Virus record (IMG/VR): IMGVR_UViG_3300047564_004641
Location: 1-64,000 of that record
Length of the DNA stretch: 64,000 nucleotides
Source of the DNA: a virus
Strand: one strand, 5' to 3'
The translations under genes and the position numbers were made by a program. Each line of letters begins with the position of its first letter. Position 1 is the stretch's first letter. Below, piece by piece: positions 5,568-26,538 of this stretch. The notes below the pieces were generated by a model. The model worked only from the letters and a program-made list of their open reading frames with translations. It searched no databases and had not been told where the DNA came from.

Positions 5568-6158
5568 ATGAGTACGTTTGCTAAAAAGGGGTGGTACTAT
5601 CTTCCCAATATTATCAGCAAAGAAGAAGCATTGGAGATTAAATATAAAAACCTCTGTGGTGCAGTAAGAGAACTTGGAAGTCTTAAAGGACATCACGATC
5701 CAGAAAGAGGAAGAGTGTTAACTTGTTATGCTCCACCAACCTGTACTTATATTATGTGGAGAGTCAAACCAATACTTGAGGAGTTGCTTGGTGAAGAACT
5801 TCTGCCGACTTATTGGTTCTCTACGACTTACCATAAAGGTGGTTGGATGAACTGTCATACTGACCGACCTTCCTGTGAAGTCTCAGTCACAATGAATATT
5901 TGCGGTGATGCTGCTTGGCCGATTAAACTCAAAGATTTAGAAGGTAAGAATAGAGCAGTTGTAACACCTGTAGGACATGGAGTTGCGTATCTTGGAACTC
6001 AAGTAGAGCACTGGAGAAGTCCTCTAAGAACTCACGATAATGATCGTTTTATGCAATTATTCCTACACTTTGTAAGAAAAAACGGTCAATACGTGGATTA
6101 CGCATTTGACCGTAACGATAAGTGTTATCATTTATTAAATATGACTAAACCTTATTGA
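5568..6158 (+). CDS. Putative Fe(II)/2-oxoglutarate-dependent oxygenase
   Basis: 196 residues on the opposite strand to its neighbours. The segment GGWMNCHTDR gives the H97-x-D99 iron ligands and VEHWR supplies the distal H148. Arg154 or Arg160 follows at the usual distance for the 2-oxoglutarate carboxylate. Between them lie the expected beta strands (VSVTMNICGD, VVTPVGHGVAYLG). Such enzymes hydroxylate proteins, lipids or small molecules; the substrate is unknown. It is one of three oxygenase-like genes in the 5.5-23 kb fibre block and has its own divergent late-type promoter. Converges on the tail-fibre assembly gene with 4 bp between stops. Confidence 0.65.
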   Translation: MSTFAKKGWYYLPNIISKEEALEIKYKNLCGAVRELGSLKGHHDPERGRVLTCYAPPTCTYIMWRVKPILEELLGEELLPTYWFSTTYHKGGWMNCHTDRPSCEVSVTMNICGDAAWPIKLKDLEGKNRAVVTPVGHGVAYLGTQVEHWRSPLRTHDNDRFMQLFLHFVRKNGQYVDYAFDRNDKCYHLLNMTKPY

Positions 6159-6162
6159 ATTA

Positions 6163-6708
6163 TTATACTGGAGGAAGTGGATCATTAATCATTGGAACAG
6201 TTCTAATATCTGCAACATAAGCATCATAAATTGCTTGATCTATTGATACATTTGCTGGAGGTGCAGGAAGTTCAGTTGGAAAGGTTGGTGCTGCAGGAAG
6301 ATCACGAAGAGATTGTCTCCAATCCTTAAATGCAGTTGTAAGATTAGTTCCTTGCTCTTTTGCTTTGATTACAATCCAATCAGTTTGAGAAAGAAGTTGA
6401 TCTCTGTACTTACGAACAAGATTTAAACGTTTTGTTCCTTGTCTTGTATCATATGCTGCGATTTCATCATCCCATTGTTGTTGCGTAAGGATTGCAAGAC
6501 CCTCTACTTCATTAATCGTAGTAGTATCAGGACAGTTGGAAAGAAAGAATGTAATACCATTTACATCACTTAATGCATGAACTACTTCAAGACCTTCAAT
6601 ATTTGGACCAATTGTACCGAACATTGGTCTTGAGAATTGTTCTGCTGTTGTTGCAAAAACTTCTGGATTATCTCTATCGACCAAATAATGTTTTATAAGT
6701 TGAGTCAT
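6163..6708 (-). CDS. Tail fibre assembly/tail assembly chaperone-like protein
   Basis: 181 residues. The central part (residues ~100-150: LVRKYRDQLLSQTDW, then a helix ending DWRQSLRDLP) has the RDxLLxxTDW and WRQxLRDLP signatures of the phage tail assembly chaperone group that includes DUF4376/Phage_tail_APC and the pfam02413 fibre assembly proteins. These help fold or trimerise fibres and are usually not in the virion. Location directly after the kelch/hydroxylase block fits. A late motif CATAAATA lies at 6734-6741. Confidence 0.65.
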   Translation of the reverse strand: MTQLIKHYLVDRDNPEVFATTAEQFSRPMFGTIGPNIEGLEVVHALSDVNGITFFLSNCPDTTTINEVEGLAILTQQQWDDEIAAYDTRQGTKRLNLVRKYRDQLLSQTDWIVIKAKEQGTNLTTAFKDWRQSLRDLPAAPTFPTELPAPPANVSIDQAIYDAYVADIRTVPMINDPLPPV

Positions 6709-6733: not shown

Positions 6734-6741
6734 TATTTATG
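6734..6741 (-). promoter_or_regulatory. Late promoter CATAAATA
   Basis: CATAAATA on the minus strand overlapping the stop region of 6737-7396 and 26 bp upstream of the ATG at 6708. Confidence 0.5.
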
Positions 6742-7396
6742 GAACCTTAATTCCATACTTCTGTTCTATTTCTTTATCTTGCTCTTCTTTTGTTTTAAAC
6801 CCTTGAACTCTCATCCAAGTTACTAAAGTATATCTCTTACCTGAAAGTACAGGTTCTACGCAGTGCTTAAACCATCTAGAAGAAGGAAAACAAACAAGAA
6901 GTCCTGGTTCTGGTTTGATTTTGATTCTTAGATCTGGAAAAGAAAAATAACCACCCTCAAAATCATCGTTGAGAAAAAGAACCGTAGAAAGATCCCGATC
7001 TACACTCTTCTTCCACATTGTTGTTCCATCAGGATTCGTCCAAAGTGCTTCTGCATCATAATGAGGTTTATAGTGCCCTCCTTTTTCATAGTAAAGAAGT
7101 TGAGGCATTTCACTATCACGAATCTTAAAATTATAAAAAGGATTAATAACATGATCGATGATATTCTTCATCAAATCATGAACTTGAGGAAGAATAGGAG
7201 TTATATCAGCACACTTTACATCTCTAGATGTCTTATCTACTTTATGTTCTGATTTTTTTGTAAGATTTGTTTTATCAGGATCAAATACTCCCATCTGTTC
7301 CATATCTGCTTGATTAGCAAAATCAAGCAGATATTTACAGTTTTCCTTTGTGACTACTTTTGGTTGAATTAAAATATTGGATAATAAATCATTCAT
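6737..7396 (-). CDS. Prolyl 4-hydroxylase-like 2OG-Fe(II) oxygenase
   Basis: 219 residues with a complete P4H catalytic core: YKPHYDA gives H112 and D114, WFKHCV gives H178, and GKRYTLVTW gives R188 ten residues later for 2-oxoglutarate. The double-strand motif TVLFLNDDFEGGYFSFP is characteristic. Family members hydroxylate proline in proteins using Fe(II), O2 and 2-oxoglutarate; similar genes are frequent in marine T4-like phages. It follows the kelch-repeat gene 7422-10220 by 25 bp. Those repeats carry Pro-Thr-Pro in most units and are a possible substrate, whereas the collagen repeats here have almost no proline. Substrate is inference. Confidence 0.8.
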   Translation of the reverse strand: MNDLLSNILIQPKVVTKENCKYLLDFANQADMEQMGVFDPDKTNLTKKSEHKVDKTSRDVKCADITPILPQVHDLMKNIIDHVINPFYNFKIRDSEMPQLLYYEKGGHYKPHYDAEALWTNPDGTTMWKKSVDRDLSTVLFLNDDFEGGYFSFPDLRIKIKPEPGLLVCFPSSRWFKHCVEPVLSGKRYTLVTWMRVQGFKTKEEQDKEIEQKYGIKVP

Positions 7397-7417: not shown

Positions 7418-7425
7418 TTATTTAG
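7418..7425 (-). promoter_or_regulatory. Late promoter-like CTAAATAA over a stop codon
   Basis: CTAAATAA on the minus strand, with the TAA stop of the 7422-10220 gene forming bases 2-4 of the motif; 22 bp from the ATG at 7396. The same motif or CTAAATA recurs at the end of 11068-13875 (11065-11071), 14777-17239 (14777-14784), 18947-21763 (18943-18950) and 23986-25302 (23990-23997), each upstream of the next gene. Confidence 0.45.
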
Positions 7426-10220
7426 TTTGCGTTTGAGACTGCTGCTAATTGATCTCTTGCTTGAGTAAGTTTTTGTGATGGGACTGATACTGTTTCTGTA
7501 AAGAAATCTAAACGATCGATTGTAGAAACAAGAGTAGGAGTACTACCACCACCAAAATAACCATAAGAACTACTTGATGTTGCTACTAAACTACTTTTTT
7601 CTTGAGATAACTTAGGTGTTGGAGTACTTACGGTTTCTGTAGAGAAATCTAAACGGTCAATAGTGGAAGCATTTATTGTTGCTGGCGCTAGTAGTCCACC
7701 ACCAAAGTAACCATAAGAATTACTTGATGTCCCCGCTAAATTTCTTTTTGCTGCAGATAATGTACTTGATACAGGTGTTACTGTTTCTGTAGAAAAATCT
7801 AAACGGTCTATGGTACAATCAATAATAGGAGTAGCCCCACCAGCAAAGTATCCAAAAGAACTACTTGAAGTTGCTACTAAACCATTTCTTACCTTAGATA
7901 ATTTAGGTGTTGGTACTGACACTGTTTCTGTAATAAAATCTAAACGATCGATTGTAGAAACAAGAGTAGGAGTACTACCACCACCAAAATAACCATAAGA
8001 ACTACTTGATGTTGCTGATATGTTATTTCTTGCTATAGATAATTTAGGTGTTGGTACTGACACTGTTTCTGTAATAAAATCTAAACGATCGATTGTAGAA
8101 ATATTACTTAGAGTAAATCCTCCACCAAAATAACCATAAAGAGTGCTTGAAAATGCTTTAAGACCAGTTCTTGCCTGAGATAACTTAGGTCCTGGTACTG
8201 ATACTGTTTCGGTAGAGAAATCTAAACGGTTTATAGTACAAACATCAGTAGGAGTACCACCACCACCCCAATAACCATAAGTGGCAGAACCAACTCTTTG
8301 AGTCCCTCTTGCTCCTGATACTGCTCCTATTTCAGATCTTGCTTGAGATAATTTAGGTCCTGGTGTTGATACTGTTTCTGTAGAAAAATCTAAACGGTCT
8401 ATGGTGGAGGTGAATCCAGGTGTTCTTCCTCCACCAAAGTAACCATAAGAATTACTTGAAACTGCTCCTTTGGATTTAACTCTTATTGAAGATAACTTAG
8501 TTGATGTTGTAGTTACTGTTTCTGTAGTAAAATCTAAACGGTCTATGGTGGAAACAGGAGTGGGAGTATAACCACCACCAAAATATCCATAAGAACTACT
8601 TGAAACTGCTCCTAAACTATTTTTTACTTGAGATAACCTAGAGGTTAGTGTTGATACTATTTCTGTTGAAAAATCTAAACGGTCGATGGTAGAAAAAAGA
8701 GTAGTGGGGGAAACACCACCACCAAAGTATCCATAAAAAGCATTTGAAGCTGATGCAAACTTATTTTTTGCGGAACTTAAATAAGATGTCGGTGTCGTTA
8801 CGGTTTCTGTAGAGAAATCTAGACGGTTAATATTAGAAAAAGTAGCTCCAGTTTCTGGTCCCCCACCTGCATAATATCCATAAAAATCACTTGAAACTGC
8901 ATTTACAATTGCTGCTTTAGATAACTTAGATGTTGGATATAATATTGTTTCTGATGAAAAATCTAAACGATCTATGGTGCAATAAAAAACACTAGGAGAA
9001 CTAGCACCACCGGCAAAGTATCCATAAGAACTGCTTGATGTTACATCCAAACTATATCTTGCTGGGGATATTTTAGTTTGTGGTGTAGTTATTGTTTCTG
9101 TGGATAAATCTAAACGATCAAATGTAGTAACTGGATTAGGTCCAGCTGGAATATCACCACCACCAAAATAACCAACATTAGCACTCTCAGGCCAGTTAGT
9201 AAACTTAGGAGAACCTCTGAAGATTTGCTGACGATTGACTTGGACTCCTGTTGATTGATCTTTTGCTTGAGACAATTTTGGTGATGGAACTGATACTGTT
9301 TCTGTCGAGAAATCTAAACGATCTATCGTACAGACATAAGTAGGAGCAGTAGTACCACCACCAAAGTAACCATAAGAACTACTTGAGACTGCTGCTAAAC
9401 CAGATCTTGCTTGAGATAACTTAGGTGTTGGTGTTGTGACGGTTTCTGTGGAAAAATCTAGACGATCAATGGTGCAAACTCTAATAGTACCATCAAAACC
9501 ACCACCAAAGTAACCATAAGAATTACTTGATGTTGCTTCTAAAGTACCTCTTGCTTGAGATAATTTTGGGGTTGGTACTGATACTGTTTCTGTAGAGAAA
9601 TCTAAACGATCTATAGTACAAACACGAATACCAGGAGAATTAATACCACCACCAAAGTAACCATAAGAACTACTTGAGACTGCCCCTAAACTAAATCTTG
9701 CCTGAGATAACTGATAGGATCCAGGCGTTGATACGGTTTCTGCGGAAAAATCTAAACGATCTATAGTACAAACCAATGATGTGGTTGGAGTAACACTAAT
9801 ATCACCACCACCAAAATAACCATAAGAACTACTTGAGACTGCTGCCAAACCAGGTTTTGATTGAGATAACTTAGATGTTGGTACTGATACTGTTTCTGTA
9901 GAAAAATCTAGGCGATCTATAGTTGAGTAAGATACCGTAGGGGGAGTTCCAACTTGACGTTCTCCTCCACAAAAATAACCATAAGAACTATTTGATACTG
10001 CTGCTAAACCAAATCTTCCTTGAGATAACTTAGGGGTTGGAGTACTTACGGTTTCTGTAGAGAAGTCTAAACGATCAATAGTAGAAATAAAATCACTAGT
10101 AGCAATATCACCCCCACCAAAATAACCATAAAGAAGACCAGGAATATCTAGTGTTAGTCCTTCATTAACATTTGTTAGTTGTTCTGTTCTAACTTCTCTA
10201 AGTGAAAATATCCCAGCCAT
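7422..10220 (-). CDS. Kelch-type repeat fibre protein, 18 repeats (paralogue 1)
   Basis: 932 residues. After a ~30-residue head (MAGIFSLREVRTEQ) come 18 repeats of ~46-52 residues, each with YGYFGGG, then TIDRLDFSTETV, then PTPKLSQAR and a Ser-rich end. Diglycine, a central RLDF strand and the KLSxAR end match kelch beta-propeller blades. A linker ending NWPESAN follows repeat 6 and a linker GTQRVGSAT follows repeat 12, splitting the protein into three sets of six, i.e. probably three six-bladed propellers in a row. No enzyme residues seen. Likely a distal fibre or receptor/glycan-binding adhesin. ATG overlaps the stop of the sulfotransferase gene by one base. Confidence 0.75.
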   Translation of the reverse strand: MAGIFSLREVRTEQLTNVNEGLTLDIPGLLYGYFGGGDIATSDFISTIDRLDFSTETVSTPTPKLSQGRFGLAAVSNSSYGYFCGGERQVGTPPTVSYSTIDRLDFSTETVSVPTSKLSQSKPGLAAVSSSSYGYFGGGDISVTPTTSLVCTIDRLDFSAETVSTPGSYQLSQARFSLGAVSSSSYGYFGGGINSPGIRVCTIDRLDFSTETVSVPTPKLSQARGTLEATSSNSYGYFGGGFDGTIRVCTIDRLDFSTETVTTPTPKLSQARSGLAAVSSSSYGYFGGGTTAPTYVCTIDRLDFSTETVSVPSPKLSQAKDQSTGVQVNRQQIFRGSPKFTNWPESANVGYFGGGDIPAGPNPVTTFDRLDLSTETITTPQTKISPARYSLDVTSSSSYGYFAGGASSPSVFYCTIDRLDFSSETILYPTSKLSKAAIVNAVSSDFYGYYAGGGPETGATFSNINRLDFSTETVTTPTSYLSSAKNKFASASNAFYGYFGGGVSPTTLFSTIDRLDFSTEIVSTLTSRLSQVKNSLGAVSSSSYGYFGGGYTPTPVSTIDRLDFTTETVTTTSTKLSSIRVKSKGAVSSNSYGYFGGGRTPGFTSTIDRLDFSTETVSTPGPKLSQARSEIGAVSGARGTQRVGSATYGYWGGGGTPTDVCTINRLDFSTETVSVPGPKLSQARTGLKAFSSTLYGYFGGGFTLSNISTIDRLDFITETVSVPTPKLSIARNNISATSSSSYGYFGGGSTPTLVSTIDRLDFITETVSVPTPKLSKVRNGLVATSSSSFGYFAGGATPIIDCTIDRLDFSTETVTPVSSTLSAAKRNLAGTSSNSYGYFGGGLLAPATINASTIDRLDFSTETVSTPTPKLSQEKSSLVATSSSSYGYFGGGSTPTLVSTIDRLDFFTETVSVPSQKLTQARDQLAAVSNAN

Positions 10221-11047
10221 TAGATTCCAAATATAGAATACTTCGGAGTTGTTTTATGCCAGAACTCCATTTCTTTATATTTATCTGTTATATACTTACT
10301 AAGATACTTTGAGTTATCACGATGTATCTTTTGTACCTTATTTCTCACAGTATGCATATTCTCAAGACCATAAACGACATCATTTTCGTCAAACTTTGGT
10401 CGAACATTTGAGAAATCATAAGAATACTCAGGTATTCCCAGAAACGAATGAATACGATTGAGTTCTTTTTGTGGATTACTGACTAAGTTTTCATACTCAA
10501 CAAACAACAAATATTTCTGATGACCTTTACGAAATGCTTCTGAAAGTGCGTGATAAGATTGACCGATAATACCTTGAGGAGACATTAGAAAATCACATCG
10601 ATTATCATTCGTGAGTTCTAAGTTTCTTTCTATCAGTGCGTTATCAATAAAAGATAAAGTCTTACTGCGTTCGATCAGTGCAAGAAAAGAACTCATAATG
10701 TCCCGAATGTTTCTTACAGGGCAGATGATCTTTGGTTCTGGAGTAATATAATCTTGAATGTGTTGAATCTGATTCACCCAACCTCTTGATTTATCAATAA
10801 TAATCGGTTCTGGTGTATCAAAGTAATAGTTATGAGGTATTGATGATAAAACCTTATGTGCTGCTTCTGGTTTTGGGTGTGCCTTATATTGCTCTGAGTT
10901 ATATAACAAATACTCCTCAGTATAATGTATCGTATCTAAAAGAGGAGAGTTTGTAGATGCGTGGATCTGTGGATTTTGATTCAGAAGTGCAGTCAGAAGT
11001 GTCGAACCAGATCTTGGAAGACCTGACATAAAGTGAAAGGTTTTCAT
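10220..11047 (-). CDS. Sulfotransferase-family protein
   Basis: 275 residues. The N-terminus FMSGLPRSGSTLL (residues 6-18) is the PAPS 5'-phosphosulfate loop of sulfotransferases. Later IICPVRNIRDIMSSF is the 3'-phosphate binding motif with Arg and Ser, and a C-terminal fold including FLGIPEYSYDF follows. The enzyme would move sulfate from PAPS to a hydroxyl on a sugar, protein or lipid. It lies between two kelch-repeat genes, with a 1-base overlap to the next, so a role in modifying the fibre or a surface glycan is likely but not shown. Confidence 0.8.
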   Translation of the reverse strand: MKTFHFMSGLPRSGSTLLTALLNQNPQIHASTNSPLLDTIHYTEEYLLYNSEQYKAHPKPEAAHKVLSSIPHNYYFDTPEPIIIDKSRGWVNQIQHIQDYITPEPKIICPVRNIRDIMSSFLALIERSKTLSFIDNALIERNLELTNDNRCDFLMSPQGIIGQSYHALSEAFRKGHQKYLLFVEYENLVSNPQKELNRIHSFLGIPEYSYDFSNVRPKFDENDVVYGLENMHTVRNKVQKIHRDNSKYLSKYITDKYKEMEFWHKTTPKYSIFGI

Positions 11048-11067
11048 AATATAGAGTTTTGATGTAT

Positions 11068-13875
11068 TTAGTTTGCGTTTGAGACTGCTGCTAAAGATTG
11101 TTTTTCTTGTGTGAGTTTTTGTAATGGTACTGATACTGTTTCTGTAGAGAAATCTAAACGATCTATGGTGGAATAACGAGTAGCAGGAGGAGTAAGACCA
11201 CCACCAAAGTAACCATAAGAACTACTTGATGTTGCTGTTAGTCTCTCCTTTGCTAGAGATAACTTAGGTGTTGGTGTTGATACTGTTTCTGTAGAGAAAT
11301 CTAAACGATCTATGGTGGAAACGACAGTAGGATTAGGAATAGTACTACCACCACCAAAGTATCCATAAGAACTACTTGAGGTTGCTGTTAACCCTCTTCT
11401 TACTGAAGATAACTTAGATGTTGGAACTGTTATGGTTTCTGTAGTGAAATCTAACCGGTCTATAGTGGAATAACGAGTAGAGGGAGTAGGAATGTAACCA
11501 CCACCAAAATAACCATAAGAATTACTTGAGACTGCTTCTAATTGATTTTTTGCTGTCGATAACTGATAGATTCCTGGTGCTGAAACCGTTTCTGTAGAAA
11601 AATCTAAACGATCTATAGTACAAACACTAATAGTAGTAAACCCACCACCAAAATATCCATAAGAACTACTTGAGGTTGCTGTTAAACTAGTTCTTGCTTG
11701 AGATAATTTAGGTGTTGGTGTTGTTACTGTTTCTGTAGAGAAATCTAAACGATCTATGGCACATAAATTAACAGAAGCAGAAGTACCACCACCAAAGTAA
11801 CCATAAGAACTGCTTGAGGTTGCTGCTAAACCATCTCTTGCTTGAGATAACTTAGGTGTTGGTACTGATACGGTTTCTGTGGAGAAATCTAAACGATCTA
11901 TTGTGGATACTGTTGTGGGACCTCCTCCACCCCAATAACCATAAGTCGCAGTACCAACTCTTTGAGTTCCGGTTCCTCCGGATACTGCTGCTAAACCTTG
12001 ATTTGCTTGAGATAATTGAGGTGTTGGTGTTGATACGGTTTCTGTAGAGAAATCTAGACGGTCTATGGTAGAAAGAATACTAGGACCAGTAATAGCACCA
12101 CCACCAAAGTAACCATAAGAACTACTTGAGACTGCTGCTAAATTAGTTTTTGCTTGAGATAACTTAGGTGTTGGTACTGATACTGTTTCTGTAGAGAAAT
12201 CTAAACGATCTATGATAGATGTAGTATTGGGATTATTTCCACTAGCAAAATAACCATAAGAACTATTAGAAATTGCACCAATATATCTTCTTGCTTGAGA
12301 TAAATTAGGTGTTGGTACTGATACTGTTTCTGTGGAGAAATCTAGACGATCTATAGTACAAACCAAAGTAGCAGGAGGTAAATATCCACCACCAAAGTAA
12401 CCATAAGAACTGCTTGATACTGCTGCTAAACCAAATCTTGCTTGAGATAACTTAGGTGTTGGTGTTGATACTGTTTCTGTAGAGAAATCTAAACGGTTTA
12501 TGGTAGAAATAGTAGACGGAGTTCCACCAGCAAAGTAACCATAAGAACTGCTTGATGCTGCTGCTAAGAAATATCTTGCTGAAGATAACTTTGGTGTTGG
12601 TACTGATACGGTTTCTGTGGAGAAATCTAAACGATCAATAGTTGTAACTTGAGTTGGAGCTGAAATATAACCACCACCAAAATAACCATAAGAACTGCTA
12701 GAAGTTGCAGATAAAGTTGTTTTTGCTTGAGATAACTTAGGTGTTGGTGTTGATACTGTTTCTGTGGAGAAATCTAAACGATTAAAAGTAGAAATAACAG
12801 AGGGAGCAGAACCACCACCAAAGTAACCAGTATTAGCACTTTCAGGCCAGTTGGTGTATATTGGAGAATTTTTTATTTTTCTTTGTCGGTTGATTTGAAC
12901 TGCTGATGAAGCAGTTCTTACCGTAGATAACTTAGGTGTTGGAGTTGTTACTGTTTCTGTATAAAAATCCAAACGATCAATGGTTGAAATAAAAGTAGTA
13001 GGGGAAGTAAGACCACCACCAAAGTAACCATAAGAACTACTTGAGGTTGCTGCTAAGGCATTTCTTGCTCCAGATAACTTAGGTGTTGGTACTGATATTG
13101 TTTCTGTAGAGAACTCTAAACGATCAATGGTAGAAACACGAGTAGTGGGGGCAGTAAGACCTCCTGCAATATAACCATAAGACCTACTTGAAGTTCCATC
13201 TATACTATTTCTTCCTGTAGATAATTTAGATGATGGTACTGATCTTGTTTCCGTGTAAAAATCCAAACGATCTATAGTAGAAAAATTATTAGTTCCATCC
13301 CAACCACCAATAAAGTATGAATAAGAATTATCTGAAACTGATGCTAAACGACTTCTTGCTTGAGATAACTTAGGTGTTGGTGTTGTTACTGTTTCCGTAG
13401 AGAAATCTAAACGGTCTATAGTGGAAAGATAAGTGCTATTAAAACCACCACCAAAGTAACCATAAGAACTATTCGAAGATGCTATCAAAGCAATTTTTTC
13501 TGCAGATAATTTGGCAGATATAACTGGTATTTGTACGGTCTCTGTAGAGAAATCTAAACGATCAATAGTAGAAAATAAAGTTAATGGAGGAACATCATCA
13601 AGTCCACCACCCCCAAAATAACCATAAGAACTATTTGAAACTGTTCCAAAACTATTTCTTGCCCGGGATAACTTAGGTGTTGGGGTTGTTACGGTTTCTG
13701 TAGAGAAATCTAAACGATCTATGGTACATACATTAATATTCGGAGTACCAGGAATAGCACCCCCACCAAAGTAACCATAAAGAGAAGCATAAACAGAAGT
13801 AACTTCTATTCCTGATGCTATGTTTTCAACTTGTTTGTCGTAAACACGATCTAGACCGAATATGTCTCCAGGCAT
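11068..13875 (-). CDS. Kelch-type repeat fibre protein, 18 repeats (paralogue 2)
   Basis: 935 residues with the same plan as 7422-10220: head MPGDIFGLDRVYDKQ, six repeats, a linker with YTNWPESAN, six repeats, the GTQRVGTAT linker with YGYWGGGG, six repeats, and the common tail AAVSNAN. Repeats are near-identical within and between the three paralogues at DNA level, favouring recombination among them. Repeats 4, 5 and 11 are the most divergent (YSYFIGG, YGYIAGG, YGYFASG). The shared head probably docks the fibre. Predicted virion adhesin. Confidence 0.75.
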   Translation of the reverse strand: MPGDIFGLDRVYDKQVENIASGIEVTSVYASLYGYFGGGAIPGTPNINVCTIDRLDFSTETVTTPTPKLSRARNSFGTVSNSSYGYFGGGGLDDVPPLTLFSTIDRLDFSTETVQIPVISAKLSAEKIALIASSNSSYGYFGGGFNSTYLSTIDRLDFSTETVTTPTPKLSQARSRLASVSDNSYSYFIGGWDGTNNFSTIDRLDFYTETRSVPSSKLSTGRNSIDGTSSRSYGYIAGGLTAPTTRVSTIDRLEFSTETISVPTPKLSGARNALAATSSSSYGYFGGGLTSPTTFISTIDRLDFYTETVTTPTPKLSTVRTASSAVQINRQRKIKNSPIYTNWPESANTGYFGGGSAPSVISTFNRLDFSTETVSTPTPKLSQAKTTLSATSSSSYGYFGGGYISAPTQVTTIDRLDFSTETVSVPTPKLSSARYFLAAASSSSYGYFAGGTPSTISTINRLDFSTETVSTPTPKLSQARFGLAAVSSSSYGYFGGGYLPPATLVCTIDRLDFSTETVSVPTPNLSQARRYIGAISNSSYGYFASGNNPNTTSIIDRLDFSTETVSVPTPKLSQAKTNLAAVSSSSYGYFGGGAITGPSILSTIDRLDFSTETVSTPTPQLSQANQGLAAVSGGTGTQRVGTATYGYWGGGGPTTVSTIDRLDFSTETVSVPTPKLSQARDGLAATSSSSYGYFGGGTSASVNLCAIDRLDFSTETVTTPTPKLSQARTSLTATSSSSYGYFGGGFTTISVCTIDRLDFSTETVSAPGIYQLSTAKNQLEAVSSNSYGYFGGGYIPTPSTRYSTIDRLDFTTETITVPTSKLSSVRRGLTATSSSSYGYFGGGSTIPNPTVVSTIDRLDFSTETVSTPTPKLSLAKERLTATSSSSYGYFGGGLTPPATRYSTIDRLDFSTETVSVPLQKLTQEKQSLAAVSNAN

Positions 13876-13881
13876 TTGTTT

Positions 13882-14742
13882 TTATGCTTCCTGTTTGAGT
13901 TGTTCGTTGAATAATGAAACTCCCTCAGTTCCTGTTGCTGGATCTAAAATCTTCTGTTCTTCTTGCTGTTTTCCTTCAAGAACATTATACATTCCACTAA
14001 TTTCTTCAATACCTTTTGCAACATGATCTTGAAGTGCATTCAGGAATGACATAGGATTCGTAGGATCCCCAAATGTTCCCTTCGTTCTATTGACATCATC
14101 AGGAAGAACGGTAGGAGCACTTGCTCTTCTCATAGAACGAATATTACCAGCATTTACACCAGTCTTTGCAGCAAGTAAATCATCCAGAGACTGATTCGCA
14201 AGTCTTCTTTCCCAATAGTTTGGTTGATCTTCATCATATTGTTCTTTACTTACTAGTTTTCCACCATTTAATTCAATTAGTCTTGAAATCAACTTATCAA
14301 AGAACTCAAGTTCATCAACTGCTGCTTGGAAACCTTGATTAAGTCCGTGAATGAGACGATGGAAATTGAACTCATCAATATCATACCAACAAAGGTCTTC
14401 TCCACCTCTACCATTCTTCCACCAAATTGGTTGAGATTTATCTTTTCCATCCCACTTAAAATGAAATTCTCTAGCAATTCTTTTTGCTTCTTGAATGCCT
14501 TGAAGAAGTCCTTCTGCAACACTCTTACGGTTGATAATTGCTGCTTTAAATGCCGAAGGAAGAGTAAAGTTGTCGTGAATAATGAATTTTTCAATCTGAA
14601 AATTGGAACGACTACCAGCAAGTTCTTTCTCACTCTCCTCCCACTTCATGCATTCATTATAAACCTTAAACATAAATTCATTGCTATCATCTAAAACATC
14701 ATCTGCTTTAGCAAGTGCAATATCCTTATAAGCTTCAGACAT
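13882..14742 (-). CDS. Cyanophage protein of unknown function, 286 aa
   Basis: Mostly helical, acidic, with conserved-looking aromatic motifs (REFHFKWDGKDKSQP, WWKNGRGGEDLCWYDIDEFNFHRL). The start is set at the ATG at 14742 because GAGGA lies just upstream; an in-frame TTG at 14760 is less likely. It lies between the kelch gene 11068-13875 and the three-domain glycosyltransferase gene. I recognise no domain. Position suggests a fibre chaperone or virion component, but this is only context. Confidence 0.6.
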   Translation of the reverse strand: MSEAYKDIALAKADDVLDDSNEFMFKVYNECMKWEESEKELAGSRSNFQIEKFIIHDNFTLPSAFKAAIINRKSVAEGLLQGIQEAKRIAREFHFKWDGKDKSQPIWWKNGRGGEDLCWYDIDEFNFHRLIHGLNQGFQAAVDELEFFDKLISRLIELNGGKLVSKEQYDEDQPNYWERRLANQSLDDLLAAKTGVNAGNIRSMRRASAPTVLPDDVNRTKGTFGDPTNPMSFLNALQDHVAKGIEEISGMYNVLEGKQQEEQKILDPATGTEGVSLFNEQLKQEA

Positions 14743-14776
14743 AGAATCCTCTTTAAACAATTCAGTTCATTTCTTT

Positions 14777-17239
14777 TTATTTAGGTAATATATTTTGACG
14801 AACGAAGTGATAATCACCATCACAGTTGTGTCCGCCATTATATCCAATATGATGGAAGAGTGCAAATCCAATTGAATTCATAAATTGTTTTACATCTTCC
14901 AACATTGGTGCTCCAGTGCTAAACTCTTTATTTTGAACCTCAAGAATCAAGTGATTACAATTCTCAAGAACTGAAGAAGAACCTTTGAGAATATTCACTT
15001 CTGCACCTTGAACGTCAATCTTAATCAGATCTGGTTTCATCCATCCTTTCTCATTTACAAGTTCATCAAGAGTTTTTGTTTGACGAATTGTTTTTCTTAG
15101 ATGTTCGTTATGAAAAACTCTTGCATCATCATAATTTTCATTCACAGGATACATCGTACAAAGTCCAGGGCACATTGGATTTTCCCAAAATTCAATCTGT
15201 TCTTTTCTATCACTTAGAAGTTCAATCGCATAGTCAACATTATATCTTGGATAAGTATTTGCAAACTCAGAGCAAGCATCGACACAATAAATCTTTGCAT
15301 CTCTCCAAACATTTGATGCTAACTTATACCAAGAAAGATAGTTGGAACCAATATCATAAATGACCTTTGGATGAAAGTTATTCCAATACTTCAATCTAAA
15401 AAGATAATCAACATGATCATCATACATCTTATCATATTTAATTTGCCAGTCATAAAACTCTTGCAAGTCACTGGTCTTCTTATCTAATAGAGTATTCATA
15501 GGTTTCTTTGAATTAATTTCAATTGCAATCTTAAAAGGTCCATATTGCTTATTAATATCTATAATGCGACTGTGATAGTCATTTACATCCAACTCCCCCT
15601 TTACCAAATATTCTCCGATCTTTTCTCCATTTACTTTAGTAAAAATGCATTGAATAATTGGATATGAGTTTTCATAGTTATGATAAATTTTTTGAATGAG
15701 TTGAATTTCATCAGAGTGACATTTAATAGATTCGTGGATTTGATTCTCTCCTCCTATTCCATCATAAACAGGATCTCTCAAGTAGAAAAACTTGACGGGA
15801 ACTTGAAGTTCATAAAGTAGAATAGAAATAAAATAATCATCATGTAAGAATACATCATCTAAAGATTTAATATTAGTATTCTTAGAAAGAAAGTTAATAT
15901 AATGTTCTTCAAAATTAGATGAATTTAATTTTTCTAATATCTTACGATTAAAGAAGAAAGAACCAACACCTTGAAGTTTGGGAACAGAATTACTCAGAAA
16001 GTGAAGATAATTTCCTTTTAAAGTTTCAGTTCCAGTAGACCATGCACACTCACCATCAACTTCAAAAGATTTCAGATAACATTCGATTAATCTTTCATCA
16101 TAGACAACATCATCATCACATACAATCACATTTGAGTTTGGATACATCTCTAGTGATTTCAATGCTCCATAAATTTTAGTTGCTGGCCCATAATCCATAT
16201 CAACATAAAGTAAATCAACTAGTCCTGAATATTTTTTGCAGATATTTTCTATCTCTTCTGGTTGATATGAAAACTTATGATATTGCTTTGGGATAGTAAC
16301 AATAATTTTATTTGGTCTTAGTGTTTGAGATAAGAATGATCGGATAATCATTTCAAGATTATTAAACCTTGAGGGAATGATTGAAAATGAAACATTGATA
16401 GGATGGTCGGTATAAGTTTCTTGAGGAAAAATGTTGATAATTAATTTACGAAGATCTTCTGGATACTTAGTAAATGAATAATCAATAAAGTCATCACCAA
16501 ACTCTTCACCTCTTCTTAAAAAATGTTTCTTACTTTTGATAAGATCTTCGATATTCTGTTCGTTCTTATATTCATCGCGGTTGTATTCCTGATGTGCGTA
16601 ACACTCTAACTTATGTTTAATTCTTTCAACTCCACCAAAGTATGTAAAATGCCATCCTGCATTTGGAATAGGAGTTAGTGAGAACCGATTGCTTCTAAAA
16701 TAATCACAACCTTTTTTGATTGCATTTGAAACGGTAGAAAATACTGTACCAGGCCAGTAATTCGGACAATAAGACTTAAAGTTATAGTAGAACATCTCAC
16801 AAGATGCTACATTTTCAACAAAGTTATTATTAAGTAATGATGTAATGATTTCCTTTCTTGGAATTTCATCAACATCACTCACCATAAAAAAGTCATCTAA
16901 AGAAAAATGAGAAAGATGTTGAGTAATCAAATCTCTTTGTTCTCTTTCTAACTTCCAATAGTCATTATCATAGTTCTTAACCTCTCCTTCAATCACAACT
17001 TCAGGAAGTTTAAATTTTGAGATATCAGGTTCATACTTTAATCTAATGATTTTCCTTTGAATTTCTTTCGGAATTTCATTCCAAATTTCATCTAGGTAAT
17101 AAGGTTTTGGTTTTCCCGAATGTGTGTAATTACTTTCTACAATGATAAAGTGATCTACAATATCATTCAAATAAGACAAACGAAGTTTGAGAACATCAAA
17201 CTCGTTGAAGAACATAAAACTATCAATGACTTTTTTCAT
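14777..17239 (-). CDS. Three-domain glycosyltransferase (GT17 + GT2-like) - FkbM methyltransferase fusion
   Basis: 820 residues. Residues 1-265 match the GT17 family (FMFFNEFDVLKLRLSYLND, then IVESNYTHSGKPKPYY and MVSDVDEIPRK, with a DVD metal motif). About 270-480 is a GT-A/GT2-like domain (FSIIPSRFNNLEMIIRSFLSQ, VIVCDDDVVYDERL). About 590-815 is an FkbM-type SAM methyltransferase (VIYDIGS, LIKIDVQGAEVNILKG, LILEVQNKEF). One polypeptide could therefore extend a glycan and O-methylate it. The methyltransferase part is a clear paralogue of that in the next gene. Substrate may be fibre glycan or host lipopolysaccharide. Confidence 0.75.
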   Translation of the reverse strand: MKKVIDSFMFFNEFDVLKLRLSYLNDIVDHFIIVESNYTHSGKPKPYYLDEIWNEIPKEIQRKIIRLKYEPDISKFKLPEVVIEGEVKNYDNDYWKLEREQRDLITQHLSHFSLDDFFMVSDVDEIPRKEIITSLLNNNFVENVASCEMFYYNFKSYCPNYWPGTVFSTVSNAIKKGCDYFRSNRFSLTPIPNAGWHFTYFGGVERIKHKLECYAHQEYNRDEYKNEQNIEDLIKSKKHFLRRGEEFGDDFIDYSFTKYPEDLRKLIINIFPQETYTDHPINVSFSIIPSRFNNLEMIIRSFLSQTLRPNKIIVTIPKQYHKFSYQPEEIENICKKYSGLVDLLYVDMDYGPATKIYGALKSLEMYPNSNVIVCDDDVVYDERLIECYLKSFEVDGECAWSTGTETLKGNYLHFLSNSVPKLQGVGSFFFNRKILEKLNSSNFEEHYINFLSKNTNIKSLDDVFLHDDYFISILLYELQVPVKFFYLRDPVYDGIGGENQIHESIKCHSDEIQLIQKIYHNYENSYPIIQCIFTKVNGEKIGEYLVKGELDVNDYHSRIIDINKQYGPFKIAIEINSKKPMNTLLDKKTSDLQEFYDWQIKYDKMYDDHVDYLFRLKYWNNFHPKVIYDIGSNYLSWYKLASNVWRDAKIYCVDACSEFANTYPRYNVDYAIELLSDRKEQIEFWENPMCPGLCTMYPVNENYDDARVFHNEHLRKTIRQTKTLDELVNEKGWMKPDLIKIDVQGAEVNILKGSSSVLENCNHLILEVQNKEFSTGAPMLEDVKQFMNSIGFALFHHIGYNGGHNCDGDYHFVRQNILPK

Positions 17240-17244
17240 AAAAA

Positions 17245-18921
17245 TTATTTCGATCTAAAGAAGTGGTAATCTCCGTCAGCACAACTTGGATTTTGTACGA
17301 AGTGTGAAATAAGAATATATCCTTTATTCTCTAAGTATTGAATAACCTCTTGATTAAGAGGGGCATCTTTCATATACTGCTTATTTTGCAATTCTAATAT
17401 CAGATGATTACAATATTCAAGAGTTCTTTCTGCTCCTTTGAGAACATCCAATTCGCATCCTTGAATATCCATTTTAATTAAATCCGGAAGTTTCCAATTT
17501 CTTTCTGCAACTACTGCATCTAAAGTTTTTGTTCTAACTGTTCTTTCTCTGTAAAAAGGACTGGTCTTAAATGCTAGATTGTGTGGAAACTCTTGGAAAT
17601 TCATTTCATAATATGAGGAACTTCCACTATCCTTAACATTCTCATAGAAAGTAACTTCTTTTTCCCTATCACTTAGAACTTCAATTGCATAGTTTATTCT
17701 ATTCTTTTGGTATAACGAATGATATCCATCAAATCCATCAATATGATAGAACTCTGCTTCATTCCACACACAAGAAGCAAACTTAGACCAATGAAGAACT
17801 GCCGAACCAATGTCATAAACCACTTTTGGTTCAAAATTATGATGATACTTTAGTCTGTAAAGATAGTCAATGTGTTGTGCTGGAACCATATTGATACTTG
17901 AAGACCACTCATAATATTCCTCTAAGGTCTTCATTCTTCCTTCAAAGAGGTCTATCTTTTGAGTCAGACTATTGATTTCATTTTCCCATAACTTTGCAAC
18001 TCTTCTCCAATTATAAGTTTCTATTGCAAACTTTGAGATTGCTGAGGATGCTTGTTCGTATTCATCTCTAGCAACATCAAAGAAATGAAGTGCTCTTATG
18101 ATTTCTTCTGCAAAGTTCTGGTGGAATGTGTCATCAGTAATCCAACCTCTGGGAGTATTTTGCCCTGACATTGGAATATACTTACCCATTCCGTTTGATG
18201 TTTCTGGAAGTGCTCCCATATCTGTAGTGATAGGAAAGCATCCGCAACTCATTGCTTCTGCAAGAGAAACACAGAAGGTTTCTTCCCACACATTTGAATG
18301 AATATAAAAAGCAGCATCTTGAATATGAAGTAGTAGTTCTTCACGGTCAATACAAGGTGAATACTCCACACCTGGAAGTGCTTGAAGTTCCTTGTAGATA
18401 GGAATGAATGGTGAAGGTTCTAGTCCCTTATCAGTTGTGATAGTCTCATTTTCTCCTTCTCCTGGTTGAATTGCACCATACAGAGACATTGAAGAAAACA
18501 CTTTGAGTTTTGCATCTGGATGATGTTTGATGACTTCTTTCCAGATGGGTACTAATGGTGTGATACCCTTATGTGGTGCGGAGAAAAAGATACAGGTTTT
18601 TGATTTTGGTTTTCCTGATGGTCGGAACATATCATCCACACCATTTGGAATGACCGTCAGTTTCTCTGCGGGTGCTCGGTTATACTTGATGTATTGCTCT
18701 CGTTCCCAGTTTGATACACAGACAATTTTATCAATCTTGTCTATGTGCTGTGGAAGGTCTCGGTGTCCTGCTTGGTCGCAATTATCGTGTGCCCAGATGA
18801 CCTTATATTGCTTATCTGATTGTATGATTTCGTGTGTGGTTCTTCTTACATCTACATTTTCAGGAAATGTATAATATTGCGAAAGATAATAAAAAGAACT
18901 TTCAGTTGCTCCAGACTTCAT
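17245..18921 (-). CDS. Glycosyltransferase (GT4-type) - FkbM methyltransferase fusion
   Basis: 558 residues. Residues ~1-320 are a GT-B glycosyltransferase of the GT4/GT1 group: IPNGVDDMFRPSG, and the donor-site signature ETFCVSLAEAMSCGCFPI. Residues ~335-555 are an FkbM methyltransferase (VVYDIGS, LIKMDIQGCELDVLKG, LILELQNKQY, ending DGDYHFFR) closely resembling the C-terminus of the neighbouring 14777-17239 protein. It follows that gene's promoter side by 5 bp, so both are co-transcribed. Likely makes a methylated glycan with its neighbours; acceptor unknown. Confidence 0.75.
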   Translation of the reverse strand: MKSGATESSFYYLSQYYTFPENVDVRRTTHEIIQSDKQYKVIWAHDNCDQAGHRDLPQHIDKIDKIVCVSNWEREQYIKYNRAPAEKLTVIPNGVDDMFRPSGKPKSKTCIFFSAPHKGITPLVPIWKEVIKHHPDAKLKVFSSMSLYGAIQPGEGENETITTDKGLEPSPFIPIYKELQALPGVEYSPCIDREELLLHIQDAAFYIHSNVWEETFCVSLAEAMSCGCFPITTDMGALPETSNGMGKYIPMSGQNTPRGWITDDTFHQNFAEEIIRALHFFDVARDEYEQASSAISKFAIETYNWRRVAKLWENEINSLTQKIDLFEGRMKTLEEYYEWSSSINMVPAQHIDYLYRLKYHHNFEPKVVYDIGSAVLHWSKFASCVWNEAEFYHIDGFDGYHSLYQKNRINYAIEVLSDREKEVTFYENVKDSGSSSYYEMNFQEFPHNLAFKTSPFYRERTVRTKTLDAVVAERNWKLPDLIKMDIQGCELDVLKGAERTLEYCNHLILELQNKQYMKDAPLNQEVIQYLENKGYILISHFVQNPSCADGDYHFFRSK

Positions 18922-18946
18922 ATCAAAATGATGTAGTTAAAGTTAT

Positions 18947-21763
18947 TTAGTTTGCGTTTGAGACTGCAGCTGGAGCAGATCTTTCTGAAGTGAGTTTTTG
19001 TGATGGAACTGATACGGTTTCTGTGGAGAAATCTAAACGATCAATTGTTGAATAAACGGCAGGAGTAGGAGCAAAACCACCACCAAAGTAACCATAAGAA
19101 CTGCTTGAGGTTGCTGATAAACTTTCTCTTGCTTGAGATAACTTAGGTGTTGGTACTGATACTGTTTCTGTGGAGAAATCTAAACGATCAATGGTGCAAA
19201 CAACAGTAGTTGGGCTAGTAGCACCACCACCAAAGTAACCATAAAAACTACTTGAGGTTGCTGATAAACTTTCTCTTGCTTGAGATAACTTAGGTGTTGG
19301 TACTGATACTGTTTCTGTGGAGAAATCTAAACGATCTATAGTAGAAACACGACCTGGAAAAAAAGCATAACCACCACCAAAGTAACCATAAGAACTACTT
19401 GCAGTTGCTGCCACTCCCCTTTTCAAATCAGATAACTTAGGTGTTGGGACTGATACTGTTTCTATTGAGAAATCTAAACGATCTATAGTAGAAACAGCAG
19501 TAGGAATAGCACCACCACCAAAGTAACCATAAGAACTACTTGAGGTTGCTGCTAATTGTTGTCTTGTTTGAGATAACTTAGGTGTTGGGACTGATACTGT
19601 TTCTGTAGAGAAATCTAAACGATCTATAGTGGAACTGGGAGTAAGACCACCACCACCAAAGTAACCATAAGAACTACTTGAGGTTGCTGCTAATTGTTGT
19701 CTTGCTTGAGATAACTTAGGAGATGGTGTTGTTACTGTTTCTGTAGAGAAATCTAAACGGTTTATGGTAGAAACAGCAGTAGGAATAGCACCACCACCAT
19801 AATAACCATAAGTCGCAGAACCAACTCTACGAGTTCCTATTGCTCCTGATACTCCAGTTCCACCATATCTAAAACTAGATAATGTAGATGTTAGATCTCC
19901 TATTGTTTCCGTTGAGAAATCTAAACGATTTATACTGGAAGTATCGGGAGGAGTATTACCACCAGCAAAATAACCATAAGAACTACTTGAAGCTCCCGAT
20001 GTTGAGGTTCTAGATGTAGTGAACCTAGATCCTAACAAATTTGCAGTTTCGGTAGAAAAATCAAAACGTTCTATAGTAGATAGTGCTCCTGGTCCAATAA
20101 AATTACCTCCACCACCAAAATAACCATAATAAGAATTTGAAACAGTTGTGGAATCGGCTCTTATTGAAGAAAGATTAGATCCTAATGTTGCCACAGTTTC
20201 TGTAGAAAAATCTAAACGATCTATACCAAGTTGATAAATATCCGATGGAACAGCATAAATTGAACCACCAGCAAAGTAACCATAAGAACTAGTTGATACA
20301 GTATTATATCCACTTCTATCACCAGCCAACTTAGGTGTTGGTGTTGTTATTGTTTCTGTAGAGAAATCTAATCGATCTATAGTGGAAACCCTAATATTAG
20401 GACTAGGTAAAGTAATACCAGCACAAAAGTAACCATAAGAACTACTTGATACTGAATTCAAAAACCTTCTTGATATAGATAATGAACTACCGAGTCTTAT
20501 TGTATTTTCTGTAGAAAAATCTAATCGTTCAGTAGTAGAACGAATAAAAGGAGAAGGAAGAGGTGAGGTTGCTCCTCCACCAAAATAACCATACTGATTA
20601 TTTGACAATGATGTCAAATGATATCTTGCTTCAGTTAATTTAGGTGCTGGTGTTGCCACAGTTTCTGTAGAAAAATCTAATCGATTAAAACTACTTAATA
20701 CTATAACTCCAGGAGGAGTTGCTCCTCCACCAAAGTAACCAACATTAGCACTCTCAGGCCAGTTAGTGAACTTAGGAGATGACTGGAAGATTGGATTGCG
20801 GTTGACTTGGACTGCTGTTGAAGCCGCTCTTCTTTGAGATAACTGAGGTCCTGGTACTGATACGGTTTCTGTAGAGAAATCTAGACGGTCAATAGTGCAA
20901 ACAAAAACAAGAGGAGCATAAAAACCACCACCAAAGTATCCAAAAAAATTACTCGAAGTTCCTGCTAAAGCATATCTTGCTTGAGGTAACTTAGGTGCTG
21001 GTGTTGATAGGGTTTCTGTGGAGAAATCTAAACGATTTATAGTACAGACATATCCAAGAGGAGTAACACCACCACCAAAATAACCATAAAGATCATTTTT
21101 TACTGTCCCAGGATAAACCGTAGATGTTGGTAATTGTTGGGGAGGAACTGAAAATGTATCTATGGAAAAATCTAAACGATCAATAGTACAATAATACGTA
21201 ACAAATCCTGGAGAAGTTCCACCAGCAAAGTAACCATAAGAACTACTTGAGGTTGCTGCTAAATATCCTCGCGAAATAGATATATTTGGAAGTGGTGTTG
21301 TCGTTTCAGTATCAAAATCTAAACGATCTACAGTGGAGGATCCAGCACCTCCACCAAAGTAACCATAAGAACTGCTTGAAGTCGCTGCTAAATAACCTCT
21401 TGATTGAGATAACTTAGGTGTTGGTGTTGATAGGGTTTCTGAGGAGAAATCTAGACGATCTATGGTGCAAACACTTGTTGATGGTGAAGTAAGTCCGCCA
21501 CCAAAGTAACCATAAGAACTACTTGAGGTTGCTGCTACATATGATTTTGCTACCGGTAGATCGATCGATGATGTTACAGTTTCTGTCGTGAAATCTAAAC
21601 GATCTATAGTGGAATAAAATATACTAGCAGTAGGAGTAGGAGGAATAAAATATCCACCACCAAAGTAACCATAAAAAAGACCCTCAATATCCAGTTGCAA
21701 TCCAGGATCAGTATTTTCGATCTGTTTTTTATAGACTTTTTTAAGACCGAATACTCCTGCCAT
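18947..21763 (-). CDS. Kelch-type repeat fibre protein, 18 repeats (paralogue 3)
   Basis: 938 residues counted from the ATG at 21763 (MAGVFGLKKVYKKQ). An upstream in-frame start at 21829 would run into the preceding gene and lacks the head shared by the paralogues. Again 18 repeats in a 6 + 6 + 6 layout: NWPESAN after repeat 6, GTRRVGSAT after repeat 12, then tail AAVSNAN. The middle six repeats are the most divergent of all three proteins (RSTTERLDF, YQLGIDRLDF, STIERFDF), while the last six are nearly uniform. Predicted propeller-type virion adhesin. Confidence 0.75.
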   Translation of the reverse strand: MAGVFGLKKVYKKQIENTDPGLQLDIEGLFYGYFGGGYFIPPTPTASIFYSTIDRLDFTTETVTSSIDLPVAKSYVAATSSSSYGYFGGGLTSPSTSVCTIDRLDFSSETLSTPTPKLSQSRGYLAATSSSSYGYFGGGAGSSTVDRLDFDTETTTPLPNISISRGYLAATSSSSYGYFAGGTSPGFVTYYCTIDRLDFSIDTFSVPPQQLPTSTVYPGTVKNDLYGYFGGGVTPLGYVCTINRLDFSTETLSTPAPKLPQARYALAGTSSNFFGYFGGGFYAPLVFVCTIDRLDFSTETVSVPGPQLSQRRAASTAVQVNRNPIFQSSPKFTNWPESANVGYFGGGATPPGVIVLSSFNRLDFSTETVATPAPKLTEARYHLTSLSNNQYGYFGGGATSPLPSPFIRSTTERLDFSTENTIRLGSSLSISRRFLNSVSSSSYGYFCAGITLPSPNIRVSTIDRLDFSTETITTPTPKLAGDRSGYNTVSTSSYGYFAGGSIYAVPSDIYQLGIDRLDFSTETVATLGSNLSSIRADSTTVSNSYYGYFGGGGNFIGPGALSTIERFDFSTETANLLGSRFTTSRTSTSGASSSSYGYFAGGNTPPDTSSINRLDFSTETIGDLTSTLSSFRYGGTGVSGAIGTRRVGSATYGYYGGGAIPTAVSTINRLDFSTETVTTPSPKLSQARQQLAATSSSSYGYFGGGGLTPSSTIDRLDFSTETVSVPTPKLSQTRQQLAATSSSSYGYFGGGAIPTAVSTIDRLDFSIETVSVPTPKLSDLKRGVAATASSSYGYFGGGYAFFPGRVSTIDRLDFSTETVSVPTPKLSQARESLSATSSSFYGYFGGGATSPTTVVCTIDRLDFSTETVSVPTPKLSQARESLSATSSSSYGYFGGGFAPTPAVYSTIDRLDFSTETVSVPSQKLTSERSAPAAVSNAN

Positions 21764-21768
21764 TTGAT

Positions 21769-22431
21769 TTACTCTTCTTGATAAACATGAGAACCAACAT
21801 GACACAGACGAATACTTGTATCTAACCAAGATTTGTATCCTACACTTGATGCTCTTTCAAAGAATGAAAAATCTTCAGGTAGAAAAGACATATCTTTTTT
21901 CATTTCAAGAAAGTAATGATATGAGTTATGATATTCCTGTTCTGTTGGTGGATAACTAGAATTATTTAGTGCAGGATAATACTTTAATTCTTCACCATAA
22001 CGATTTTGAATTTCCCGAAATACTTGCCGTTTAATACAACAAAATCCAAATCCAATATTTTCAATCTGAACTAATCCTTCTTCTGCAACTGGAGGAGATG
22101 AGATATTATAATTGTAACGAAGTGGAATACCCTTCATTGGATATGCACCACAAACAATATCCTTATCTGCAAGAATAACCTTCAGGGCATCTTCTGGTGT
22201 AAATCCAACATCAGCATCAATAAACAAAATCTTCTCATACTCGGTATTATTCATATAGAAGTTAGCAATTCTTGATCTTGCTTTCGTAACAAGACTTTCA
22301 TTTGCCATAGTCAAAAGACCGTGATCGATTCCGTTTTTATTCAGTGCCTTTCCTAAATTGAATAATCCCTTTGCGGTTTTATCACTTACCATTCCCCCAT
22401 AACAGGGCATTGCGATTAATACTGAAGTCAT
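21769..22431 (-). CDS. GT-A fold glycosyltransferase
   Basis: 220 residues. The N-terminus SVLIAMPCYGGMVSDKTA and the ILFIDADVGF motif (D72-A-D74, a DxD metal site) define a GT-A sugar transferase, followed by KDIVCGAYPMKG and a conserved GFGFCCIKR segment typical of a small group in marine phages. ATG overlaps the stop of 22428-23006 (ATGA), giving coupled translation. It stands immediately before kelch paralogue 3. Probably adds a sugar to a fibre or surface glycan; donor and acceptor not known. Confidence 0.7.
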   Translation of the reverse strand: MTSVLIAMPCYGGMVSDKTAKGLFNLGKALNKNGIDHGLLTMANESLVTKARSRIANFYMNNTEYEKILFIDADVGFTPEDALKVILADKDIVCGAYPMKGIPLRYNYNISSPPVAEEGLVQIENIGFGFCCIKRQVFREIQNRYGEELKYYPALNNSSYPPTEQEYHNSYHYFLEMKKDMSFLPEDFSFFERASSVGYKSWLDTSIRLCHVGSHVYQEE

Positions 22432-23006
22432 ACAAGTAACTCTACATTAAATGAGATTGAAATACGATTTTCGTTAATTGGATTTGGATTCACAAAATGA
22501 GGTAACCAAGAAGGAAATAATACCAACTCTCCAACCTTTGGAGTGTGATTATGATAGTTTGTATCTCTTAAACAACTACCTTGAAAGTCCATAATCTTTG
22601 AAGGTCTTGGATCTTCAAAGGTAATACCAGGAGCACCTTCTGGAAGTGCAACATAATAAACGGCACTCATCCAACCACTGGGATGAACGTGTGTGAAATT
22701 ATAACCACCTTGAGGATTGACATTTCCCCACATTGCACGAATGACGAACTCTGGTTTGTTGGTAGAAAGGTCTGCAATGATTGATTGAACGATTGTAGAA
22801 GACTTTTCTAACAATGGTTTAAAGGTCTCATTCTGCCAAAGTGTAATATCACTCTGCCATCCATTACGATTACTTTTAATTTCTCCAGGACTTTCTTTTG
22901 AAAGTTTTAAAAGTTCTTGTTTATAACTTTCGTTTTCTTTTTGATCGTAAATATCAACAAAGTACAAATCAGTCGGGAAAAGACCACGACATTTAATATT
23001 AAACAT
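22428..23006 (-). CDS. 2OG-Fe(II) oxygenase, TIGR02466-like
   Basis: 192 residues matching the putative 2OG-Fe(II) oxygenase family common in cyanophages (TIGR02466/pfam13759). GYNFTHVHPSGWMSAVYY contains H106 and H108, the ITFEDPRP strand follows, then LVLFPSWLPHFVNPN with distal H170 and R181 for 2-oxoglutarate. The first facial-triad position reads H-x-H rather than the usual H-x-D, as I recall for this family. Third oxygenase of the block; coupled by ATGA overlap to the glycosyltransferase gene. Substrate unknown. Confidence 0.75.
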   Translation of the reverse strand: MFNIKCRGLFPTDLYFVDIYDQKENESYKQELLKLSKESPGEIKSNRNGWQSDITLWQNETFKPLLEKSSTIVQSIIADLSTNKPEFVIRAMWGNVNPQGGYNFTHVHPSGWMSAVYYVALPEGAPGITFEDPRPSKIMDFQGSCLRDTNYHNHTPKVGELVLFPSWLPHFVNPNPINENRISISFNVELLV

Positions 23007-26519: not shown

Positions 26520-26538
26520 TTCCTCAGAGAGGAATAGC
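26515..26538. other. Hairpin at convergent gene ends
   Basis: Inverted repeat GCT(A)ATTCCTC - AGA - GAGGAATAGC with one bulged A spans the stops of the plus gene (26519) and minus gene (26524). No U-tract follows on either strand, so it may be an RNA 3'-end stabiliser rather than an intrinsic terminator. Confidence 0.4.

Follow-up and report, generated by a model that had tools for sequence, protein, structure and literature searches.

Closed six-bladed kelch propellers are found in the metazoan BTB-kelch proteins Keap1, KLHL12 and KLHL20 as well as in the designed SAKe6 proteins. In Keap1 the final strand A completes blade I, and the ligand pocket is formed by the B-C and D-A loops (PMC4668279). 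The natural BTB-kelch proteins possess a single propeller together with a BTB domain. In addition, kelch propellers occur in large myophages, namely in CBB_550/552/554 and in virion structural proteins of PhiPA3, Phabio and Noxifer, and CBB_552 was detected in CBB virions by mass spectrometry (PMC5259590). A kelch-repeat protein has also been mentioned for P-HM2 (PMC3037559). This phage carries, after its tail fibre genes, a gene named similarly to the 'sericin 1-like' protein of S-RIM12; the latter is predicted to have the same fold as the proteins described here (TMq 0.79) but is a single shorter protein. No unit of the present kelch family was found in the scanned stretches of P-HM2, a scan which left out 50-59 kb and 105-140 kb. 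How T4-like cyanophages bind their receptors is, to our knowledge, largely unexplained.

The three kelch genes described here are located in the window, i.e. the whole stretch of 64,000 nucleotides that was analysed (positions 1 to 64,000 of the IMG/VR record IMGVR_UViG_3300047564_004641). The record, a virus contig of 115 kb, also encodes two photosystem II reaction-centre proteins outside the window (G000 69146-71929), which point to a cyanophage. Its annotated relatives infect Synechococcus, and a marine origin is suggested by them. The same kelch family exists in the Synechococcus phage S-SKS1 (Llyrvirus; PHROG 19111, unknown function), which shares the A, B and C heads, the kelch units, a sulfotransferase, a 292-aa gene and 2OG oxygenases with the window. 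The S-SKS1 copies have two propellers, compared with three in the window, and are annotated as hypothetical proteins only; A and B comprise about 12 units each if the broken frames are summed, and C runs off the record's end. The splitting of these genes by frameshifts and record ends (L079, S-SKS1 201816-207961) is probably due to a sequencing or assembly error in the repeats.

Thus kelch proteins in phage virions are already known; new are the trio, the unit numbers in multiples of six and the separation of heads and bodies. None of these was found described in openly licensed papers, a coverage which excludes most subscription journals, and an orthologous-head trio and tandem 6 + 6 + 6 arrays are not among the reported features of the jumbo-phage kelch proteins. 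Members of the family occur in dozens of viral contigs from the environment and in a single isolate, the Synechococcus WH7803 phage S-SKS1, and the family is therefore open to experiments.

Three reading frames of eighteen kelch-type units

All three genes are encoded on the minus strand. Paralogue A (7422..10220, 932 aa) starts with a type A head (10134..10220, residues 1-29, MAGIFSLREVRTEQ...), followed by propeller 1 (9240..10133, units 1-6), linker 1 (9174..9239, ...TNWPESANV), propeller 2 (8316..9173, units 7-12), linker 2 (8283..8315, GARGTQRVGSA) and propeller 3 (7425..8282, units 13-18). Paralogue B (11068..13875, 935 aa, 64% identity to A) is composed of a type B head (13783-13875), propellers at 12895-13782, 11980-12828 and 11071-11946 and linkers at 12829-12894 and 11947-11979. 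Paralogue C (18947..21763, 938 aa, 61% identity to A) has a type C head (21677-21763), propellers at 20807-21676, 19847-20740 and 18950-19813 and linkers at 20741-20806 and 19814-19846. The C frame can be extended by 22 codons upstream to a TTG; the ATG at 21763 agrees with the heads of its relatives.

Each of the three proteins contains 18 G-Y-[FWYI] units and 18 R[LF][DE][FL] motifs, and a profile built from the units independently recovers 18 per reading frame, every unit with at least 48 bits. The spacing of 43-54 aa widens only after unit 6 (66-67 aa) and after unit 12 (56-58 aa), where the linkers with NWPESAN and with GTQRVGSA, GTQRVGTA or GTRRVGSA, respectively, are located in A, B and C. 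The 18 units, the two linkers and the 6 + 6 + 6 layout claimed in the initial annotation are all confirmed by these counts, and its assignment to the kelch type also holds. PF24681 matches A (1.5e-22) and B (6.4e-27) with 80-95 bits at a cut-off of 50, Kelch_3 is above the Pfam cut-off in A, B and C and Kelch_4 exceeds its cut-off as well, so that the 44-56 aa repeat typical of kelch is recovered by kelch profiles. Matches to the Pfam families SpdB and VP17 were judged to be chance hits of a glycine-rich sequence. The double glycine closing strand B, common to Keap1, the KLHL proteins and SAKe6, is found as YGYFGGG in nearly every unit. In contrast, where these proteins have a conserved strand C Tyr and strand D Trp, the phage units have Leu and Val, according to the alignment to SAKe6FR. 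As judged from profile score, glycine doublet and predicted fold, the units represent a divergent and not a canonical kelch propeller, the packing core being the divergent part.

In the PDB, a profile of 100 six-unit blocks retrieved first SAKe6FR, a designed protein with six blades that is matched almost from end to end (1.1e-20), and then KLHL12 and Keap1. AlphaFold2 predicts propeller 3 of A (modelled block 7425-8285, 92 block sequences) as a closed six-bladed kelch propeller of four-stranded blades (pLDDT 96.0, pTM 0.93), although kelch proteins in the training data may have biased the predictor towards a closed ring. In a Foldseek comparison this model reached a TM of about 0.90 to SAKe6BE-L2, KLHL20, KLHL12 and Keap1. 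The proposed six-bladed propeller was thus what the model returned for a six-unit block, not a solenoid or another fold, and a beta-solenoid or an open 18-blade array was rejected on the basis of the block model and the linkers. Independently of the model, closure is supported by the sequence, because YGYFGGG (strand B) opens every block and AxxLAAVS (strand A) concludes it, both the linkers and the C-terminus lying exactly at that boundary, which is the arrangement of Keap1, where a final strand A likewise closes the ring; the same closure is seen in KLHL12, KLHL20 and SAKe6. The number of six blades per domain follows from the linkers and from the relatives treated below. One closed six-bladed propeller per six-unit block is therefore well supported by sequence and prediction. 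A full-length AlphaFold2 model of A with 36 relatives had a pLDDT of 37 and was not used as evidence.

The variation between units is concentrated in the B-C loop. Among 1144 units this loop, 6 to 18 residues long up to the RLDF motif, has an entropy of 2.2-3.8 bits, compared with about 0.1-0.5 for the conserved strand B/C core, whose residues are nearly fixed. Next in variability come the D-A loop and the first residues of strand A. By position, the B-C and D-A loops correspond to the loops of the Keap1 ligand pocket, so that the variation appears to fall at the expected site of a binding face. Pro, Ser and Thr are abundant in the loops, and aromatic residues make up only 11%; as far as composition tells, this is not a classical lectin signature and counts against a reading of the proteins as binding arms. 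The variable loop also differs from the targets of diversity-generating retroelements, for which a fixed-length variable region with adenine-directed changes is expected, as its length varies.

Propeller number, heads and bodies among the relatives

Unit numbers were compared in 92 distinct complete ORFs, taken from 69 viral loci and including the window's own copies. Twelve units were found in 68 of them, 18 in 15 (among these the three window proteins) and 24 in three, with linkers after every sixth unit, and just six ORFs do not fit. As 86 of the 92 carry multiples of six, whole propellers seem to be the step of gain or loss, and such a quantised blade number is natural evidence for the whole kelch propeller as an evolutionary unit. 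A free variation of the repeat number, which would have spoken against the layout first proposed, was not seen. The exceptions (17, 17, 16, 10, 7 and 4 units) are in-frame or truncated variants from metagenome assemblies, and kelch repeats are under-recovered from short reads (PMC9238414). In L012, L020, L035, L067 and L073 one to two units of a block are lost in frame or very short versions are present, which may be real or a collapse of the assembly.

Paralogues of the same phage have equal unit numbers in 23 of 24 contigs, and none of 100,000 shuffles reached this value in a test that ignores the relatedness of the phages and excludes the six ORFs with non-fitting counts. In the relatives of the window the last two propellers are marked by a WPESA start and a GxxRVG-type linker, which suggests that the third propeller (in L016 also a fourth) was added at the head side; in the L021/L023 branch the extra propellers sit elsewhere. 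A protein of the latter branch (L021:2817-5342) carries a C-terminal extension of 231 residues with a MAM-like match (1.9e-6) behind its two propellers. Taken together, the phage family has two to four tandem propellers behind phage heads, in contrast to the single propeller and BTB domain of the natural BTB-kelch proteins.

A more distant trio is located in the same island in AG-345-L05, a marine Kyanoviridae virus from a single cell. Its kelch-like units are highly divergent (about 24-29% identity per propeller). Two of the three genes are compatible with 3 x 6, although only 17 units per gene were detected, and in the third (L080:13346-16093) the middle propeller is replaced by a lectin-like LamG domain (PF13385, 2.3e-20), which supports a modular binding arm. 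A search of the viral contigs with a divergent query gave no match. A cellular origin was rejected, as a scan of 84,980 prokaryote genomes detected, within its sensitivity, no relative.

A single docking head shared by the three proteins had been claimed in the initial annotation; instead, three distinct orthologous types are present, with the motifs FSLxEVRTEQ in A, GDxFGLxxVYDxQ in B and GxFGLKKVYKKQ in C. The nearest head was of the same type and from another phage in 61 of 61 cases, and the same-type comparison was the higher one in 274 of 276 phage pairs, as against just 138 and 156 of the 276 for the last two propellers. Within one phage, propellers from different paralogues are even more similar (64% identity) than those of the same paralogue between phages (57%), although five of the 24 phages show no such excess, and an identical linker precedes the last propeller in 11 of 50 pairs from the same phage but only in 14 of 604 same-type pairs from different phages. 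Within one gene, units share exact DNA repeats of 81 and 86 bp, which indicate a recent duplication at the level of blades. At the sequence level, then, the heads are orthologous across the phages, whereas the propellers bear no type signal and look drawn from a common pool.

In tblastn and head-profile searches the heads matched only this kelch family and were not found on other bodies; one divergent body with a family head (L077 5995-7866) is likewise kelch. A tblastn row from an Arthrobacter phage (E = 5) was regarded as chance. Since fully read loci mostly keep all three genes, with nearly equal length and propellers from a common pool, a co-present set of three arms is more likely than a choice of alternative tips.

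Probable role in the virion

We consider it probable that the three proteins are host-recognition arms of a T4-like cyanophage, built from tandem closed kelch propellers on three heads. Each protein would form an arm like beads on a string, in which the presumed binding face is the side of the blades that bears the variable B-C and D-A loops. The short N-terminal head would anchor each paralogue in the virion at a different site of tail or baseplate, and the arms may bind the cyanobacterial surface, most likely glycans. As the bodies of all three seem to come from one recombining pool, the same kind of arm with the same propeller number would be mounted on three sockets, and the split between heads and bodies suggests just this. 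The contrast of conserved heads and pooled bodies also offers a system for studying how recognition diversifies at several sites simultaneously. No virion proteomics or image of any family member, S-SKS1 included, was found in the openly licensed literature.

More tentative, and in our opinion somewhat below an even chance, is the full picture of a virion in which selection keeps the heads separate, the bodies are interchangeable, recombine and change their length by whole propellers in register, and dedicated sulfo- and glycosyltransferases modify them. The homogenisation of the bodies could also be neutral, a mere consequence of recombination between repeats. The type signal would then have been erased by unequal crossing-over and gene conversion among long, nearly identical repeats with no selection for matching arms, and folding alone would impose the multiple of six. 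This concerns only the evolution of the genes and is compatible with host-recognition arms. The exact repeats within one gene and the phages lacking a within-phage excess speak for it; however, the agreement of propeller number within contigs exceeds the needs of folding (relatedness not being modelled), and the homogenisation stops sharply at the head. We therefore regard it as possible, but rather doubtful as the whole cause.

The location of the trio argues for recognition arms, too. It is flanked by genes for a tail fibre with S74-type chaperone, a collagen-like tail fibre and a phage tail assembly chaperone/tail fibre assembly protein (6163..6708, minus strand; PF16778 1.2e-11, PHROG 4912 5e-25). 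The large separate tail-fibre genes nearby (26524-32586 and 2937-5177) also fit a different function, namely decoration or whisker proteins on capsid, neck or tail, which would hold particles or polysaccharide and not act as the primary receptor binder. The three head types would then stand for three decoration sites, in agreement with their single pool of bodies, and the kelch virion protein of CBB comes from a phage with whisker-like tail structures (PMC5259590). Because the genes lie inside the tail-fibre cluster together with the assembly protein, this function is unlikely, though still to be taken seriously.

A Foldseek search of viral structures with the block model yielded phage proteins annotated as virion structural, most phage kelch proteins being unnamed, but also poxvirus kelch adaptors. 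The fold and the variable face resemble those of protein-binding kelch domains, so that the trio might bind host proteins in the infected cell in the style of Keap1 or the poxvirus adaptors, or might be shed as decoys for host-surface glycan or for other phages. A BTB or other effector domain is missing, however, the position next to tail fibre assembly genes within the tail cluster is conserved, and anchoring is the better match for a short conserved head and a free C-terminus; such a non-virion role is improbable. Least of all do we expect catalytic propellers of galactose oxidase or another type acting on surface polysaccharide, since the name 'galactose oxidase, central domain' given by Pfam to Kelch_3 and Kelch_4 refers to the repeat and not to an activity, galactose oxidase is seven-bladed with a Tyr-Cys pair at its copper site while here the blades number six and the unit profile shows no conserved pair of this kind, and the hypervariable faces have no cluster of conserved polar residues that was seen outside the repeat core.

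Enzymes and other genes of the island

The kelch genes are interspersed with genes for putative modifying enzymes, all on the minus strand. A sulfotransferase (10220..11047; PF13469 1e-19) lies directly upstream of A and a 292-aa protein (13882..14760) directly upstream of B, followed by a glycosyltransferase family 17 + FkbM methyltransferase (14777..17239) and a glycosyltransferase + FkbM methyltransferase (17245..18921), the latter conserved in the island. Upstream of C a glycosyltransferase-like protein is encoded (21769..22431; PHROG 1574, no Pfam match, function read from the sequence). A prolyl-hydroxylase-like 2OG-Fe(II) oxygenase (6737..7396; PF13640 3.6e-16), conserved in the island, is located downstream of the kelch block and a second 2OG-Fe(II) oxygenase (22428..23006) on the opposite flank. 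Among the relatives, the gene ahead of A is the sulfotransferase in 24 of 32 distinct contexts, and the one ahead of B is the 292-aa gene in all 28. The usual order of the locus is C, then sulfotransferase-A and glycosyltransferase/FkbM-292-aa-B in either order, then the 2OG oxygenase and the tail fibre assembly protein.

As these enzymes travel with particular paralogues, the arm proteins are their likeliest target; the glycosyl-, sulfo- and hydroxyl-transferring activities would most likely modify the arms, and the host surface may be an alternative target. In AG-345-L05 (L080:10969-12864) and in L069:1-1527 a glycosyltransferase carries the 292-aa domain at its C-terminus, a fusion which ties this domain to glycan modification and makes a function as fibre dock less likely.

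The collagen-like tail fibre (2937-5177; 746 aa, PF01391 1.4e-67) is clustered with the two 2OG-Fe(II) oxygenases, and the prolyl-hydroxylase-like one could target the collagen or the Pro-rich kelch loops. A gene for 196 aa on the opposite strand (5568-6158, plus), with no Pfam match, is kept downstream of the island in most relatives.
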